From a virus, in the IMG/VR virus record IMGVR_UViG_3300035665_000081, positions 1-42,447 of that record: a DNA stretch of 42,447 nt, one strand, 5' to 3'. Shown piece by piece: positions 2,650 through 27,820 of this stretch. The translations under genes and the position numbers were made by a program. The notes under the pieces are model-generated. The model was not told the origin of the DNA. It saw only the letters and a list, made by a program, of their open reading frames with translations, and ran no database searches. The stretch's first letter is position 1. The number at the start of each line of letters is the position of its first letter.

Positions 2650-5600
2650 TAGGCGAGCAAGCCTCCGGGGCGTTTTTGTTTAATGAGTTCTTGCTGGACC
2701 GCGATGCCGATGGCTTTACCGAGCTGGTTGGCCTGGTTGCCATCGCCTTGCACACTAGACCCGCTGGCGTCTACGTTCACCACGACGTTGGCGCTTCCCA
2801 TCCCAAGGCTGTCGTTGGGTACGATACCGCCGCTGCGGCCTGGGACGAACAACTCGGGGCCTTTTTCGCCGACGATGTAGGGCGAGCCAGCAGATACGGG
2901 ACCGCCTGCTGCTCTGAATCCAATAGGGCCAACCCCAAATCCGACAGCAGGATTTAATTTGCCCGCAGCGGCCGTAGCACCCCCAAGACCCATTCCGCCG
3001 CCGGGGAAAAGGTTAAGGACACTGTTGAGGATCGTCATTTCGATCCACTTGGCGATGATCTGGGCCGCCATGTCAAGGAAGCGGTCGGCCACGCTTTGGA
3101 AGAAGCTGGCGAGGGCTTCCTGGGCGGTCATGGCGCCAGAAATGACGCCTTTGAACGAGTCACTGAACGCTGCGCCTATACCCTCGGCGGCTGTTGTTAT
3201 TTGCTGTATAGGATCTAACAGCGTATTTAGTTCACCTTTAACACCTATAAAGGCGTTTTGTAGACGCTTTTCTGGAGACTGTTCGGCCGTGGCTCCAGCT
3301 ATTGCAGCGCCTCTAGCAGTACGCAATCTATCTCTACGCTCTATTAAAGATTCAAGCAAGGCTTGTTGATTAAACAAGGTTTCGTTTTCTGCTTTTAGCG
3401 CTTCGAGCTCTGCAATTTGTATGTTAAGAGCCCCCACTGCGGGATCATACAGCTGTTCGATCTTCGCTAACTGCTCGCTAAGTGCTGGAATTGTTCCGTT
3501 CAAAATGCTGTCATTGTACGTTGCTTGGTAAATAATCAAATCGTTTTGCGCCTTAACCATCTGGTTAAGCGGTGCAATAAAAGCCTGTTCAATACTTGCA
3601 AGCAACTGCAACCTATTACGATCTTCGTCTGTAAGTTGTTGGGCTGTTTGCAGTAATTCTTGATACGCAGCAATTTGGCGGGCCACGGAATCGTTTGCTG
3701 CATCTATACCGCGTGTATCCGCACTCAAAGCGGGTAGCGCACCCATGCCTGGGATTTTGGATGGCACCTGAAGAAGTTTTTGTCCTTGCGCGGCTTGTGC
3801 TTCAGCCGGGGCTAAACGAGCCAGTGCAACGTCGTTAGCTTTAATTAGTGAGTTGTAAAATTTTTCGGCGTCAGTCGTTAATTTGCCTTGTGCCCGAACC
3901 AGTTCACGCTGAACTTTGGTTTGCTCTGTATCTGCTTCAAGCTGGGCGCGTACTTTAGCCAGCTCTATTGATACCGCTGCTATTTGACGCCTGTAATTTT
4001 TAATGGATATTTCTTCGTTCTCTCGGTTAATATCTTTATTGATTCGTGCAATTTTTACGGTGTTATCGTAGTTTGTGCGTGCAATAGTTTTGGCAACATC
4101 TAATTTATACCTTTCGTTTTCTACATCAAATTTTAGCATTTCTAGCTTAAACTGTCGTTCATTATTGGCGGCCTCGTTATTTATTTCTGCCAATCCAGTT
4201 CTATAGTCATCTACTGCGTTCATCAGAGTGGTAGCCGCATCTGCACCTGGAGCAGCCATAAGTTCGCGCTCTTTTGAGGCATTTCTGGCTATTTCAATAC
4301 GAATATCGCCTTGCTTTTTCAGCAGTTCCAGTTCTTTTCCTAAAGCTTGCACCTGGGTGTCGAACGCTTTTCTTTGTAGCTGCTCGGTCAAGTCAAACTG
4401 TTGACGTTGTAGCGCCAGCACCATATCTGCATATTGCTCCGCGTACTGTCTTTTTTTATCGTTTAAAGTTCTCTCCAGCTCGGCCAATTCTGTGTACAAC
4501 TTTTCGCCGTCTTGTAGCCGGGCAGTCAATTCTTCATTACTAAGTTTGATGTTTGTCTGAGTTTGTTTTTTAGCAAGTGCTTCGTATTTTGCGATAATCG
4601 GCTTTTGCGCTGCTTCTCCTCCGCTTAAAGAAGCAAACATTTCTTTTTGGAACTGCGCTGCTTGTTCTGGCTTTAAGTTTTTTGTTATAGTATTTACGTT
4701 TGATTGTGATGCGGTAGACGGGGCAAATTTAAGTACGTCAGCAATAAACTGTAGCAAGCCGGCTAAGGGACCTGCTAAGGCTACTTGCAGTTGAAGATTT
4801 AAGTCTGCCCATGCTCTGTTGAGCTTAGAAGATGCGTCACCTAAATTTTGAAGACTTGCTACGCCTTCATAACCAATTTTTTTGTTCAGCTCTTCTTGAA
4901 CAACTTGGAGCGCCAGGGAGGACCGTCCGGCTTCCGCGTATTGCTTTGCCAGAAATTCTGTTTCTTTAGATGAGAAGAGCGCGCTGTCGCTCATGTGCTG
5001 GATTGTTGTATCCAGCGTCCGCACAGCTTCACCAGCGACACGCGCACCAGCAATAACACGGTCCACAATCGTGCCGATTGCACTGGTGACAATCGACATC
5101 ATGGGGTTGCCGGGAATAAAACCGCCGGCAAAGCCGCCTACAACAGCGCCAGGGCCTCCTCCAAACAACAGCGGAAATGCACCACCAATTAGTGCGTTCT
5201 GAAGAGCACCTCCACGATTATCTTTGCTGGCAGCCCCGGCACCACCGCCTGGAGCAGGAGGTTTTGTTCCGGGTGGTTGCGCTCTTTGTGTATTTGCAAT
5301 AGCTTTACGCAACAGCAATTCGTTGCGAAGCCCGTTAAGAATTACGTCAATCTGATCTAATTCTGCTTTGGTTAGTTGGGCGCCTTCTGACTTGAGCTTG
5401 TTGTTAAGAGTTTCTAGGTGGTTAATTTCATGGTCGACTTGTAGCCCTTTAGCTTTGTACTCCAGAGCTTTTTGCTCCAGGATCAGGCCGGATCCAATTA
5501 TGTTCTGCAGGCGTTTCTGCAGAGTTGTCTGGGTGTTAAGAGTTTGCTCTGCGGCTTTAGCTGCTGGGGCTTGAATCCCGCCTGTAGCCATCCAAGCAGC

Positions 5601-20742: not shown

Positions 20743-21029
20743 GCACGTCCCAGTCCCTGCCATCCGGTGGGGGCTTCTCACCGTCTCGCAGTGAGACTGA
20801 CGAGACACCACCTGAGACGCCCCAGTAGCAAGCCACACGCCAGGGGCAGGGTCACTCTGCCCCGGGGCAGGGCACCTTGTCCCAGCGCCTCTCCCAGTCA
20901 CCGCACCAGGCATCGGGTGTAGTGAATGGCCACCCTGAATGGTCTGGTGAATGGCGCCGGCAGGTGTCAGAAACGTACCAGCGGCATGAATGGCATGTGA
21001 TGCCCAGCGGTAAATCCATGAATGGCGTC
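20743..21029. repeat. Repeat-rich convergent intergenic region (TGAATGG repeats, GTCTC/GAGAC palindromes)
   Basis: This is the largest non-coding stretch (287 bases) and no frame in it looks coding. Six direct copies of TGAATGG lie at 20923, 20936, 20948, 20987, 21019 and 21043; the last is just inside the exonuclease gene end. GTCTCGCAGTGAGAC at 20783 and GTCTCAGGCTGAGAC at 21027 are near-perfect palindromes. GGGGCAG-ggtcact-CTGCCCC at 20843-20863 is a 7-bp hairpin, followed by another GGGGCAG. It may be a replication or regulatory site; no T-run makes it a standard terminator. Confidence 0.6.
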
Positions 21030-21872
21030 TCAGGCTGAGACTTGAATGGGATTCTGGAGAGCGGAGTAATACTGTTCCACCCTGGTCATGAATGACTTCT
21101 CAGCCTGCTGCAGTTCTTCGGGGGTCATCCAGTGAATGTTTGGCGCTCCACAGCGGCGGGCTAGAACGATCACAGCTCCAGTCGGTTCCAGTCCGGTCAG
21201 GTGTTTTAGGCCGAGGCTGTAAGCCCCACACTGGTCGATGTATGAATGACCTGGGGGCAAGCGTTCCAGGCCCTCTTCATCTTTTTTAGTTTTGCGCCCG
21301 ACGCTGGTTTTCCAGTCGGCAACCACGATGGAGTTGTTCTTGAATCCCAGCAGGGCGTCTGCCGTTCCAGCAAAACCTGCCGGGTGGTGGATGGAAAATT
21401 CGCTGGCGAAAATTTCGGTGACGTTCTCGGCGATCCAGTCGGACAAGCTGCGGGCGTAGCCGGAGGCGCTCCAGCCAACGCGGGGAACGTTGGGGCGGAC
21501 CCTCTTCAATGCCCACTGCGTGATTGGCGAGGGAATCCGGGCTAGTCCCTGATCGTCCCAGCGGATGGCGTTGCGCTTGTTTGCAGTGGAGCGTGCCAGC
21601 TGCTGAGACGTTTTGAGGAGATATTCCGCCTGACTGTGGGCCATGTTGCCTCGGGTGGCGGCAACATTGCGCTGGCAGCTTGCCTCCACCGGTCCCAGGC
21701 GGGCTTCCCAGCGCTCCAGGCCGGTTTTGTCGCTCGTCTCCTTCAGGATGTGTGTAACACTATGGTATACATTACCTTTGATGTCCCGGTAGACCCGAAA
21801 GGGGCCTGAATTATCTTGCTCCAGTCGCCATTTACGCAGTCCTGCCAGCGTGTCTTGGGTGTTGGAGGCCAT
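21030..21872 (-). CDS. PD-(D/E)XK family exonuclease
   Basis: This 280-residue protein carries the PD-(D/E)XK core: HPAGFAGTADALLGFKNN gives the conserved Asp and NSIVVADWKTSVG gives the D-x-K pair. An upstream helical part (GNMAHSQAEYLL) resembles the Glu-containing motif (GxxxHxxxE) of RecB/MGME1-like nucleases, and QCGAYSLGLKHLTG resembles motif QxxxY. It probably digests DNA in recombination or host degradation together with the neighbouring SSB. ATG 21872 was chosen for GGGAAAG upstream. The gene ends within the repeat-rich region. Confidence 0.85.
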   Translation of the reverse strand: MASNTQDTLAGLRKWRLEQDNSGPFRVYRDIKGNVYHSVTHILKETSDKTGLERWEARLGPVEASCQRNVAATRGNMAHSQAEYLLKTSQQLARSTANKRNAIRWDDQGLARIPSPITQWALKRVRPNVPRVGWSASGYARSLSDWIAENVTEIFASEFSIHHPAGFAGTADALLGFKNNSIVVADWKTSVGRKTKKDEEGLERLPPGHSYIDQCGAYSLGLKHLTGLEPTGAVIVLARRCGAPNIHWMTPEELQQAEKSFMTRVEQYYSALQNPIQVSA

Positions 21873-21905
21873 GAAGTTATTCTTTCCCAATCTAATAATA
21901 CCAGT

Positions 21906-21930
21906 AAAAAGCCCCGCGCAATGGCGGGGC
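21906..21930 (-). terminator. Rho-independent terminator before the exonuclease gene
   Basis: On the minus strand GCCCCGC, a 6-base loop and GCGGGGC form a perfect 7-bp stem followed by TTTTT. It lies between the zinc-ribbon gene stop (21939) and the exonuclease start (21872), so it should limit readthrough from the SSB gene into the exonuclease gene. Confidence 0.85.
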
Positions 21931-21938
21931 AAAGTTTT

Positions 21939-22979: not shown

Positions 22980-25430
22980 GTGTCTCGTAAGACGCAAGAA
23001 CTGCTGGATTTTGTGCGCCAGCTGCCTATTGGGCTGGCCTATGCACCGATTTACGCCAAGAAGTACGCGATCCAGTCCGGGAAAATCTCGAAGGGCAAGA
23101 CACCGCTAGAGCGCAGTCACCATCAGGTGATGGCACCGTCGGATGTAGCGCTTCAGATCGAGCGCAAGCCGGATGTGTTCCAAGCGGTCGGTGTGTTCAC
23201 CGGCGGTCGCAGCATGGGACTCGTGATTCTCGACGTGGATCGCAACCTTTCCCGGCTGCTGAAGAAGTGGGGCGAGACGCTGGAGGGGGCCCCGAAGGTC
23301 ACCAGCACCAAGGCCAACGCGGCGAAGTACCTGTTTCGCGTCCCAGAGGCCCTGTGGGGCGATGTGAAGGGCTTTGGGCTGTCGGATACCGGCGCGGGGT
23401 ATGAGGTCCTCTGGGGCCGTCAGGGCGTCATCTACGGGGCTTATCCGGGCTCCAGTGATGGGAAGGCACCGGAGGGCTATTACGGCTTTGAAGGCGACCT
23501 AGAGGCGATTCCTGACGCCCCTGAGTGGCTGTTGGCGGAAATGCGCGATCACGCCGGTAAAGAGATTCAAGACGGCGGCTTCATCAAGAACCGCCGGGCG
23601 TTGGATTTTTCGGATCGAGATCCAGCTGAGGTGGCTGAGATCATTCAGTCGGCGCTGAAGGTGATTCCCGGTCAAGGCAGCGGCAGCCGCGACCACTGGG
23701 TAAAGGTGGGGATGGCGATCCACAGCGAGTTGCCGACTGACCTAGGGCTGACGCTGTGGTCGGCGTGGTCTGCGGAAGATCCCGAATTTTCACAGGAATG
23801 GTCTGAAGGCAATCCCTGTGAGGACGTGTGGAAGTCCTTTCGGAAAGGGCCAGTCAGCCTTGGGACGCTGTTCTGGATGGCGGATCAGCAGCTGCCTGCT
23901 CGCATGTGGCTTTCCGAGGATCTGCGGAAGGTTGTTGAGAAGGTTGAGGCCGACAACATCATCAGGATTCGGCAGATCCAGATCGGCTTCCCAGAACTGA
24001 TCAAACGGGCGAAAGAGATCCAGCAGATTCAAAACCCCGCGGAAGCTGCTCACGCCATGAACGCGCTGGCGTTAGAAGGCGGTTATCGGGACGCTGGGGC
24101 GCTGGAGCGGCTGCTGATTGCCCAGATTCAGTACGAGCAGCGTGATGACGACATGGAGATCGGCGCCCTGTTGGATAAGGAAGTGCAGTTGGACTACCTG
24201 ATCCCTGATCTACTGCCGAAACCGGGTGTTGTGATGATTCATGGCGCTGGTGGTGACGGTAAATCCATGACCGCCTGGACCATTGCAAAACACGTTGCCC
24301 GCGGTATTCCTTTTTCAATTAGGGGTGCTGATGTTCCAGTTCAGCAGGGCAAAGTCCTGATCCTTAATGGCGATCAGTCTGAAGTTCAGGTCAAACAGCA
24401 GATGCAGGACTTGGAGCTTGGCCATGGTGATCCGATTCGGGTTGTTATGGGCTGGGATCTGAACTGGTATCTGCGTTTTGTAAAACTCGTTGAGAAGCAC
24501 CAGCCAGCTTTGGTGATCATTGATTCGATCACCGGTTGTAGTCGGGGTTCGGCGTTTGATGAAAATCGGAAGGAGTTTGCTGGGCCGCTGTACTGGCTGG
24601 CTAACAACAACGGTCGCCTGTTCCCTGCCTGCACCATCCTCGTTGTCCACCACAGCAACAAGGCTGGAGGCTTCCGGGGCACCACCGCCCTTAGGGATGC
24701 CGTGGATGAGGTCTGGAGCCTCCGTAAGCCCTCTGAGAAGGAGTTGGAGCGAGTGGGCTTCTCCAGTCGTCTAATCACCGTTGAGAAGAGCCGCGCAGGC
24801 CGTGGTGGCAGCAAGCTGCTGCTCAAGATGCTCGAAGACCTGACCTTTGAGCTGAAGGACTACGTGGAAATGACCACGGAGAGCGCCACGCCGGCTTCCA
24901 TCGTGGATCGGGTGCTCCAGCGGTTGCGGTCAGCCGCCAAGAGCGACGAGGGCCGTACACGGCAGGATCTGCACTCCGATCCGCTGTGCGGGGGAAGCGT
25001 GGTCGGCATCAAAAAGGCACTCCAGCGTTTGGAGGCTCGCGGTTTGGTCTTTAGTACAGAAGAACCAAGCTCCAGGAGGGCTGGCTCCAGCATCAAGCGG
25101 TACTTTGCTTTGCTCTCGCGTGATATGTGTGAGAGAGAGTGTCCCCCTATAGCAAAAACCAGTCCAGGACTGGAAAAATTAGGGGGACAAGGTACTGGGG
25201 TGTCCCCCTTAAATACGGATCCGACACCTGCCCCTGGAACGCTTGACCAGCTTTCGCCCTCCAGTGAAGTCGATTTAGGGGGACACAAAAAAGGCTGTCC
25301 CCCTGAGACCGCCTGTGTTGATGCGAGTTCTGGACAGGGGGACACATTTTCTGTAACCCCCCAAGAGAGGAAGCGTTCCAAGGAGGAACTCAAGGCTCTT
25401 ATGGATGCGGCAGTGAGGATGTGGGAATGA
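22980..25430 (+). CDS. Primase-polymerase / helicase fusion
   Basis: This 816-residue protein is the probable replication initiator and unwinding enzyme. Residues 1-200 form an archaeo-eukaryotic-type prim-pol domain with the metal-binding LDVDRN (about 84-89). The usual sxH His seems replaced by Lys in AAKYLFRV (inference). Residues about 212-300 match PriCT-2 (VIPGQGSGSRDHWVKVGMAI). Residues about 400-630 are a RepA-like helicase, with Walker A GAGGDGKS (422-429), Walker B LVIIDS with D515, and VVHHSNKAGG and RGTTALRDAVDEVWSL. The C-terminal 100 residues are low complexity and carry the six DNA motifs listed separately. It starts at GTG with AGGAG upstream. Confidence 0.92.
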   Translation: MSRKTQELLDFVRQLPIGLAYAPIYAKKYAIQSGKISKGKTPLERSHHQVMAPSDVALQIERKPDVFQAVGVFTGGRSMGLVILDVDRNLSRLLKKWGETLEGAPKVTSTKANAAKYLFRVPEALWGDVKGFGLSDTGAGYEVLWGRQGVIYGAYPGSSDGKAPEGYYGFEGDLEAIPDAPEWLLAEMRDHAGKEIQDGGFIKNRRALDFSDRDPAEVAEIIQSALKVIPGQGSGSRDHWVKVGMAIHSELPTDLGLTLWSAWSAEDPEFSQEWSEGNPCEDVWKSFRKGPVSLGTLFWMADQQLPARMWLSEDLRKVVEKVEADNIIRIRQIQIGFPELIKRAKEIQQIQNPAEAAHAMNALALEGGYRDAGALERLLIAQIQYEQRDDDMEIGALLDKEVQLDYLIPDLLPKPGVVMIHGAGGDGKSMTAWTIAKHVARGIPFSIRGADVPVQQGKVLILNGDQSEVQVKQQMQDLELGHGDPIRVVMGWDLNWYLRFVKLVEKHQPALVIIDSITGCSRGSAFDENRKEFAGPLYWLANNNGRLFPACTILVVHHSNKAGGFRGTTALRDAVDEVWSLRKPSEKELERVGFSSRLITVEKSRAGRGGSKLLLKMLEDLTFELKDYVEMTTESATPASIVDRVLQRLRSAAKSDEGRTRQDLHSDPLCGGSVVGIKKALQRLEARGLVFSTEEPSSRRAGSSIKRYFALLSRDMCERECPPIAKTSPGLEKLGGQGTGVSPLNTDPTPAPGTLDQLSPSSEVDLGGHKKGCPPETACVDASSGQGDTFSVTPQERKRSKEELKALMDAAVRMWE
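25140..25344. repeat. Alternating inverted array of six TGTCCCCCT/AGGGGGACA motifs
   Basis: TGTCCCCCT occurs at 25140, 25201 and 25296; its complement AGGGGGACA occurs at 25181, 25277 and 25336. Orientation alternates strictly and the start-to-start spacings are 41, 20, 76, 19, 40, a symmetric layout. The middle pairs (25181/25201 and 25277/25296) make two hairpins with 9-bp perfect arms and 10-11-base loops. The motif is read in different codon frames (CPP, LGG, SPL, LGG, CPP, QGD), so the DNA, not the protein, seems conserved. A replication origin or initiator-binding site is the leading guess. Confidence 0.8.
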
Positions 25431-25714
25431 TGTACTACACAAAAGACGGAGAGCCCTCTTATGTGCCACAAACTGATGAACAACGTTTCGCTGTTTGGGT
25501 GCAAAAAGTTAGTGATTGGCGCCTAGTTGTAGTTAAAGAAGTTGTAAAAGACAGATTCGGTAAACCCTGCAGAAATCGTTTAGGGCAAGTTTTATACAAA
25601 GAGGTAGAAAAGGTGGTGGGTACAGGCATAGCCGAACCCACCGAAGAGGAGTTGGCCCGTGCGTGCGCCAAGCCGTGTCGTTACAGGAGGGCAGCCCGTG
25701 CATCACGCGCCTAA
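25427..25714 (+). CDS. Small basic hypothetical protein
   Basis: The 95-residue product begins MMYYTKDGEPSYVPQTDEQR and contains VVVKEVVKDRFGKPCRNRLG and an Arg-rich tail (CRYRRAARASRA). ATG 25427 overlaps the stop of the primase-helicase gene, and GAGG lies 8 bases upstream. It is AT-richer at its start than the genes around it, for about 200 bases, suggesting a separate history. No family is recognised. Confidence 0.6.
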   Translation: MMYYTKDGEPSYVPQTDEQRFAVWVQKVSDWRLVVVKEVVKDRFGKPCRNRLGQVLYKEVEKVVGTGIAEPTEEELARACAKPCRYRRAARASRA

Positions 25715-27445: not shown

Positions 27446-27820
27446 ATGCACATTCTTTCTGACGAACAGTTCCAGCAGATCACCACTGCCCTGGAGCACG
27501 CCTTCGTGGCCATCAACGCCTGCCAGCACGTCGAACTGGACGTGACCAAGCCGGCAATCGCACCAGCAGCTAAGCCTGTGCGTGCAACCGCTACCCAGTC
27601 TCAACCTAAGACTCGTGTGTCGCGCCGCAAGACGCGGGCGGCGTTGACGGAGAAGAAGGTGCTGGAAATTAAGCGCCAGCTGCAGGCTGGTGGCAAGTCG
27701 GTCGCCAAGATCGCTAAGGAGTTCGGCGTCCACAGCACCACGATCAACTGCATCAAGTGGAACAAGACGTGGAAACACGTGACGCTCCAGCAGGATCAGC
27801 CCACCACGGTGGTGATCTGA
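27446..27820 (+). CDS. Helix-turn-helix DNA-binding protein
   Basis: The 124-residue protein has a helical N-terminus (DEQFQQITTALEHAFVAINA), a basic Ala/Pro/Arg linker (about 45-65), and a C-terminal HTH: LTEKKVLEIKRQLQAGGKSV then AKIAKEFGVHSTTINCIKWN. The HTH is the resolvase/transposase type that reads DNA with IAKEFGVHSTTI. It may be a transcriptional regulator of the early operon. It lies two bases before the dCTP deaminase start. Confidence 0.72.
   Translation: MHILSDEQFQQITTALEHAFVAINACQHVELDVTKPAIAPAAKPVRATATQSQPKTRVSRRKTRAALTEKKVLEIKRQLQAGGKSVAKIAKEFGVHSTTINCIKWNKTWKHVTLQQDQPTTVVI

Follow-up and report, generated by a model that had tools for sequence, protein, structure and literature searches.

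What purpose is served by six copies of a nine-base word, alternating in orientation, inside the 3' end of an 816-codon viral primase-helicase gene? The array lies in the IMG/VR record IMGVR_UViG_3300035665_000081, which we analysed whole as one window of 42,447 nucleotides. The portal and capsid-region proteins encoded there have their best matches in Synechococcus and Prochlorococcus phages, so the virus is probably a cyanophage, the protein matches hinting at its host. To our knowledge, the replication origins of most environmental phages are unknown. We consider it likely that the array is the replication origin of this phage, an intragenic iteron origin that would be bound by the winged helix of its own primase-helicase and fired bidirectionally by two initiator assemblies.

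The word TGTCCCCCT occurs six times between positions 25140 and 25344 in strict strand alternation, with start-to-start distances of 41, 20, 76, 19 and 40 bp. This confirms the places, strands and spacing given in a preliminary description of the locus, and the motif is not frequent across the genome, the remainder of the window containing no exact copy. The six copies use all three codon phases and encode the peptides CPP, LGG, SPL, LGG, CPP and QGD, also as described. When the linker protein was held fixed and its codons were resampled synonymously, the commonest 9-mer reached four copies in 0 of 20,000 trials. When the codons already present were instead permuted between positions with the same amino acid, five copies arose once and six never, and nucleotide shuffles never reached six. 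A scan of the whole window for clustered 8-mers returned the array as the only cluster of more than four copies. The low-complexity linker is rich in P, G and S and could be suspected of generating repeats at the protein level or through codon bias. The resampling refutes such an artefact, the copies occupy three frames and both strands, and an antisense ORF at 24860-25504 is not conserved, the antisense frame over the array being fully open in <10% of relatives. An origin of the repeats in protein or codon usage is thus almost certainly wrong, and the earlier attribution to selection on DNA rather than protein is upheld. Between sites 1 and 2 lies the palindrome CCAGTCCAGGACTGG, whose right-hand counterpart at 25311-25325 is degenerate. 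Elsewhere in the window, about nine same-strand TGAATG words fall within some 370 bp (20916-21290), at the 3' end of an exonuclease-like ORF (21030-21932, minus strand) and in the adjoining gap.

Table 1 Positions of the primase-helicase gene, its modelled domains and the repeat array in the window.
Feature	Position	Strand	Basis or remark
Primase-helicase gene, 816 aa, proposed origin-binding initiator	22980-25430	+	ORF, Pfam domains
C-terminal winged-helix domain, residues 641-710, proposed repeat reader	24900-25109	+	AlphaFold2, Foldseek
Recognition helix, residues 674-686; residue 678 is Lys	24999-25037	+	AlphaFold2 model, covariation with repeat position 7
Exchangeable cassette (recognition helix, wing, array), approximate	25010-25370		Identity profiles, near-isogenic relatives
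Wing hairpin, residues 690-710	25047-25109	+	Model; covariation of residues 702-703 with the variable repeat half
Linker-coding stretch with array, residues 713-799, predicted disordered	25116-25376	+	Full-length model, pLDDT mostly 25-39
Site 1, TGTCCCCCT	25140-25148	+	Exact match
Palindrome CCAGTCCAGGACTGG	25159-25173		Between sites 1 and 2; retained in relatives regardless of repeat word
Site 2, TGTCCCCCT	25181-25189	-	Exact match
Site 3, TGTCCCCCT	25201-25209	+	Exact match
Site 4, TGTCCCCCT	25277-25285	-	Exact match
Site 5, TGTCCCCCT	25296-25304	+	Exact match
Site 6, TGTCCCCCT	25336-25344	-	Exact match

Pfam analysis detects two domains in the primase-helicase, PriCT_2 at residues 222-301 (E 1e-15) and AAA_25 at residues 394-563 (E 6e-19), with no match to an O-family domain or to a D5/SF3 or DUF927 helicase domain. 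Searching the sequence of the entire protein against solved structures gave no match. AlphaFold2 modelling of the C-terminal domain from 94 sequences yielded a winged helix with a core pLDDT of about 80, placing residue 678 in the recognition helix and residues 702-703 at the wing. The top Foldseek matches to this model are mostly winged-helix proteins, none with E below 0.001. The full-length model, with a mean pLDDT of 43.8, is too weak for use outside the winged helix. Array DNA would be tolerated inside the gene because the linker encoded there is disordered, and the locus illustrates how DNA under strong constraint can be concealed where a protein has a disordered linker. Names from Pfam, PHROG and PDB were also considered as an explanation of the array and set aside, as they identify domains and say nothing about the repeats.

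Three scans of viral contigs provided 122 distinct related genes with a complete 3' end. At least five sites with the core TGTCC are present at the same 3' stretch in 116 of them, and the density of this core per 300 bp is 6.80 in the array stretch versus 0.47 both upstream and downstream. One gene (L017) has four TGTCC-core sites. Two others keep the array layout with another word, namely TGTCAAAA in eight copies (L216) and TTTTCCGA in eight copies forming an exact mirror (L221), while L214 and L219 show weaker repeats at this place and L222 no clear repeat. The decisive check suggested in the preliminary description, a search for the motif at the equivalent place in related phages, is thus positive, and since the array stretch is kept with differing words, it is a stable part of the gene despite its changing letters. 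The palindrome between sites 1 and 2 also has equivalents in relatives, inside each outer 41-bp unit and between the outer convergent pair: CCAGT-N5-ACTGG is largely retained on the left (50 unique units), and 55 unique units on the right contain a related element. A GTDB scan returned no relatives of the gene in bacterial genomes, and cultured phages gave only weak matches to the helicase domain, the best being S-CBS4 at 29%, without an array.

The repeat caller accepted 98 arrays as coherent, the other 18 of the 116 being left out as insufficiently coherent. In these 98 arrays the five bases that follow TGTCC fall into 31 classes, and among the words used by different phages are CCCCT, CACTG, CACCT, AACTG, AGCTG, TCTTT and GTTTT. 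Within a genome, different sites share on average 3.41 of these five bases, whereas corresponding sites of different genomes share 1.81. Sites in one phage therefore track each other and not their positional counterparts, as would be expected of binding sites for a single changing protein. Distances between site centres cluster at 10-11, 20, 30-31 and 41 bp, near whole turns of DNA, and the dominant spacings across arrays are 41, 20, 10-11, 20, 41. The central gap, 76 bp in the window, is more variable than the others. In 62 of the 98 arrays the layout is a dyad, the pattern being its own reverse complement (exact in 46, off by 1 bp in 16). Many relatives have additional same-strand copies 10-11 bp apart, and other arrays have layouts such as +++++----. 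A sister group (L191, L197, L201, L204 and relatives) lacks strict alternation and carries several plus-strand followed by several minus-strand sites in steps of about 10 bp.

Which part of the protein follows these changes was assessed with partial Mantel tests, comparing distances between repeat words with distances between protein segments while holding the rest of the protein constant. The signal is highest for residues 672-692 (r = 0.286) and 692-714 (r = 0.228; 0 of 500 permutations each) and weaker for residues 390-640 (0.13-0.14). Residues 640-672, which adjoin the covarying segment, gave 0.002, and residues 714-721, even nearer to the array, gave 0.111; proximity to the array alone is therefore an insufficient explanation. 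Among all variable columns from residue 4 to 715, the best three are 703 and 702 in the wing and 678 in the recognition helix. Across 64 non-redundant genomes, position 7 of the repeat is C in 16 of the 19 with Lys678 and A in 18 of the 23 with Arg678. When independent pairs were taken from a tree of residues 4-635, 7-8 of them agreed and 0-1 disagreed (p about 0.016), with at least 23 changes of repeat position 7 and at least 26 of residue 678 on the tree. A single pair of relatives illustrates the point: L185 and L187 are almost identical before the winged helix, and their sole difference in the recognition helix is K678R. The sites of L187 read TGTCCCA (6/6) and those of L185 TGTCCCC (5/6). 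This covariation of residues 678, 702 and 703 supports a C-terminal domain that sets iteron specificity, with binding itself as a prediction, and we strongly infer that the winged helix of the primase-helicase binds the array.

Comparison of near-isogenic relatives showed that identity drops only from about -420 to -60 relative to the stop codon, delimiting a cassette of roughly 360 bp. Between L106 and L133 identity is 94% upstream, 60% in the cassette and 97% downstream; for L104 and L138 the corresponding values are 89%, 60% and 91%. The repeat words are quite different within each pair. Low identity between matching flanks indicates that specificity was replaced as a cassette with both flanks retained, and co-inheritance therefore explains part of the covariation. 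Part of the statistical link between helix and array could accordingly be hitchhiking, helix and array being exchanged together. On the other hand, the changes at single positions and the independent pairs, with convergent Lys-C and Arg-A combinations, argue for direct reading, although at p about 0.016 this support is modest, and the weaker partial correlations of residues 390-640 count on the other side.

In the mechanism that we propose, the C-terminal winged helix would bind each TGTCC-NNNN(N) site, recognizing TGTCC as the common core, and residue 678 of the recognition helix together with residues 702-703 at the wing tip would read the variable half. The sites stand near whole turns apart (10-11, 20, 30 and 41 bp) in two mirror-image half-arrays, an arrangement on which two opposite-facing initiator assemblies could form. 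These would load the AAA_25 helicase in head-to-head orientation, with the N-terminal primase then priming bidirectional synthesis. For origin use and loading by two assemblies we draw on the analogy with lambda O, SaPI Rep and Cch2. The window encodes a family A DNA polymerase and contains no match to DnaB (DnaB_C), ParA or a tyrosine integrase, which is consistent with an origin. The preliminary description had suggested a GC-skew switch at 25.2 kb as an origin sign, but the computed skew has none at the array and this sign was rejected. No AT-rich unwinding element is conserved, and only a mild AT peak (0.51 versus about 0.41) is seen inside the left half-array. An AT-rich stretch just 3' of the primase gene (25470-25620, 0.57-0.63 versus 0.43 for the window) was likewise discarded because relatives show no consistent AT peak. 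The missing skew switch and the missing conserved AT-rich tract count against a textbook origin.

The same absence of a skew switch, together with the location of the array 3' of the helicase domain, would also fit a control locus at which the primase-helicase binds the repeats for titration, for autoregulation of its gene or for limiting re-initiation, the origin lying elsewhere. Control of this kind can be exerted by iterons and by the P4 crr element. Nevertheless, the window holds only one such array, a dyad symmetry accurate to 0-1 bp exceeds the needs of titration, and the lambda and SaPI origins lie in or beside initiator genes (PMC7466680, PMC7581432); we regard a mere control function as unlikely. 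Repeated sites could in principle also be operators or parS-like centromeres for a phage repressor, a partition protein or a host factor, and the window encodes a small HTH-like protein (27446-27817). However, it is the winged helix of the primase-helicase that holds the covarying residues, the window has no ParA or integrase match, and the array occupies the 3' end of an ORF rather than an evident promoter, leaving another reader very improbable.

Finally, the repeats might act as RNA or single-strand hairpins, for example in an attenuator, a terminator or a single-strand primosome site. Sites 2/3 and 4/5 can indeed form hairpins, as had been pointed out before, their loops being about 10 nt long, and concerted change preserves the pairing. 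Yet stems need neither same-strand copies 10-11 bp apart nor runs of five plus and then four minus sites, and hairpins leave the helical-turn spacing and the covariation with a DNA-binding fold unexplained. The same-strand and +++++---- arrays of relatives favour a protein on duplex DNA, so the central hairpins are probably a by-product and a hairpin function would be highly surprising.

An iteron origin inside the gene of its own initiator has several counterparts. The repA genes of N15 and PY54 contain in-gene origins. In lambda, four direct iterons lie beside an AT-rich tract, and the O protein is no helicase and recruits host DnaB via P. The initiator gene O carries the lambda iterons at its middle, and any additional iterons just lengthen the protein by further residues (PMC7466680). 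The likeness is that one locus encodes both the reader, here predicted, and the sites, and the comparison with lambda ori made in the preliminary description stands as regards place, the array being at the 3' end of the gene in a linker predicted to be disordered. In contrast to lambda, the sites are about 9-10 bp long, the array is alternating and mirror-image, no AT-rich tract is conserved, and the putative initiator is a primase-helicase with AAA_25 instead of an O protein acting with P and host DnaB. The P4 alpha protein follows the same self-loading initiator-helicase scheme as proposed here, its C-terminal domain binding iterons. Similarly, the C-terminal domains of the helicases SaPI Rep and SCCmec Cch2 bind origin iterons beside their own genes (PMC7581432). 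This architecture resembles ours, and primase-helicase fusions occur among these helicases. SaPI Rep, Cch2 and P4 alpha are, however, of the D5/DUF927 type and not AAA_25 with PriCT_2, and SaPI origins lie downstream of the gene and not inside it. As the locus lacks defining features of both lambdoid O/ori and SaPI Rep/P4 alpha, we file it with neither and describe it as a variant of iteron origins, with which it shares several near-identical sites in the proposed initiator gene. The array in relatives thus supports the central point of the preliminary description, a pairing of initiator and origin, with binding and origin use as our inference. Its further suggestion of an unrecognised new system is better put as a variant of in-gene iteron origins. 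Our literature search, thin on subscription journals, found no report of the array.

In its evolution the locus resembles the PLE satellites of Vibrio cholerae, in which the RepA_N DNA-binding domain and the origin covary and have been exchanged as modules and a nuclease directed at the origin is known to exert pressure (PMC8263062). The origin of PLE lies between genes, however, and its RepA is no primase-helicase; the specificity groups described for PLE number two, compared with the 31 five-base classes in this one gene family. Ectopic origin copies can arrest lambda (PMC4488673), and by analogy such arrest is a possible second pressure on origin specificity. Because about 400 bp spans both the recognition residues and the sites, phages can swap the two as a single cassette or retune them jointly. 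We tentatively suggest, as a possibility that falls somewhat short of probable, that the family represents fast-diversifying origin recognition, in which a compact cassette in one reading frame is repeatedly swapped or retuned, giving dozens of mutually exclusive specificities, and this diversity is maintained by conflict with relatives infecting the same cell, with satellites or with defences that target origins. If so, the gene family would contain a readable amino-acid-to-base code. The natural variation among relatives offers such a recognition code together with matched swaps for testing, and a concrete system in which to study why phages alter their origin specificity, be it through incompatibility, satellites, origin decoys or origin-directed nucleases. 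Sequence alone is enough to locate both the proposed origin and its reader, since a stretch of about 400 bp in one gene contains them.

The architecture recurs outside this family. Three cyanobacterial plasmid genes for AAA-family ATPases, distantly related helicases, contain in-gene arrays with different words and layouts: TTGGACAA in eight copies (L090), AGTCAACA in six (L092) and CCTAACAC in six (L230), with 0 of 200 shuffles for each. The distant relatives L087, L089, L091, L094, L231 and L233 have no in-gene array, so the arrangement is not universal. Two further plasmids carry repeats at helicase or ATPase genes. On the phage-like E. coli plasmid p1RM9154-C1 (L093), five copies of AAAGTGAG at 4460-4650 directly follow a RepA-family helicase gene, and this word contains AAGTG, the reported iteron word of SCCmec Cch2 (PMC7581432). 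In Caldicellulosiruptor bescii pATHE01 (L232), an AAA ATPase gene (18-2174) contains nine copies of AGAGTGAA, six of them at 9-bp steps, which could be an in-gene origin or a protein-level repeat.
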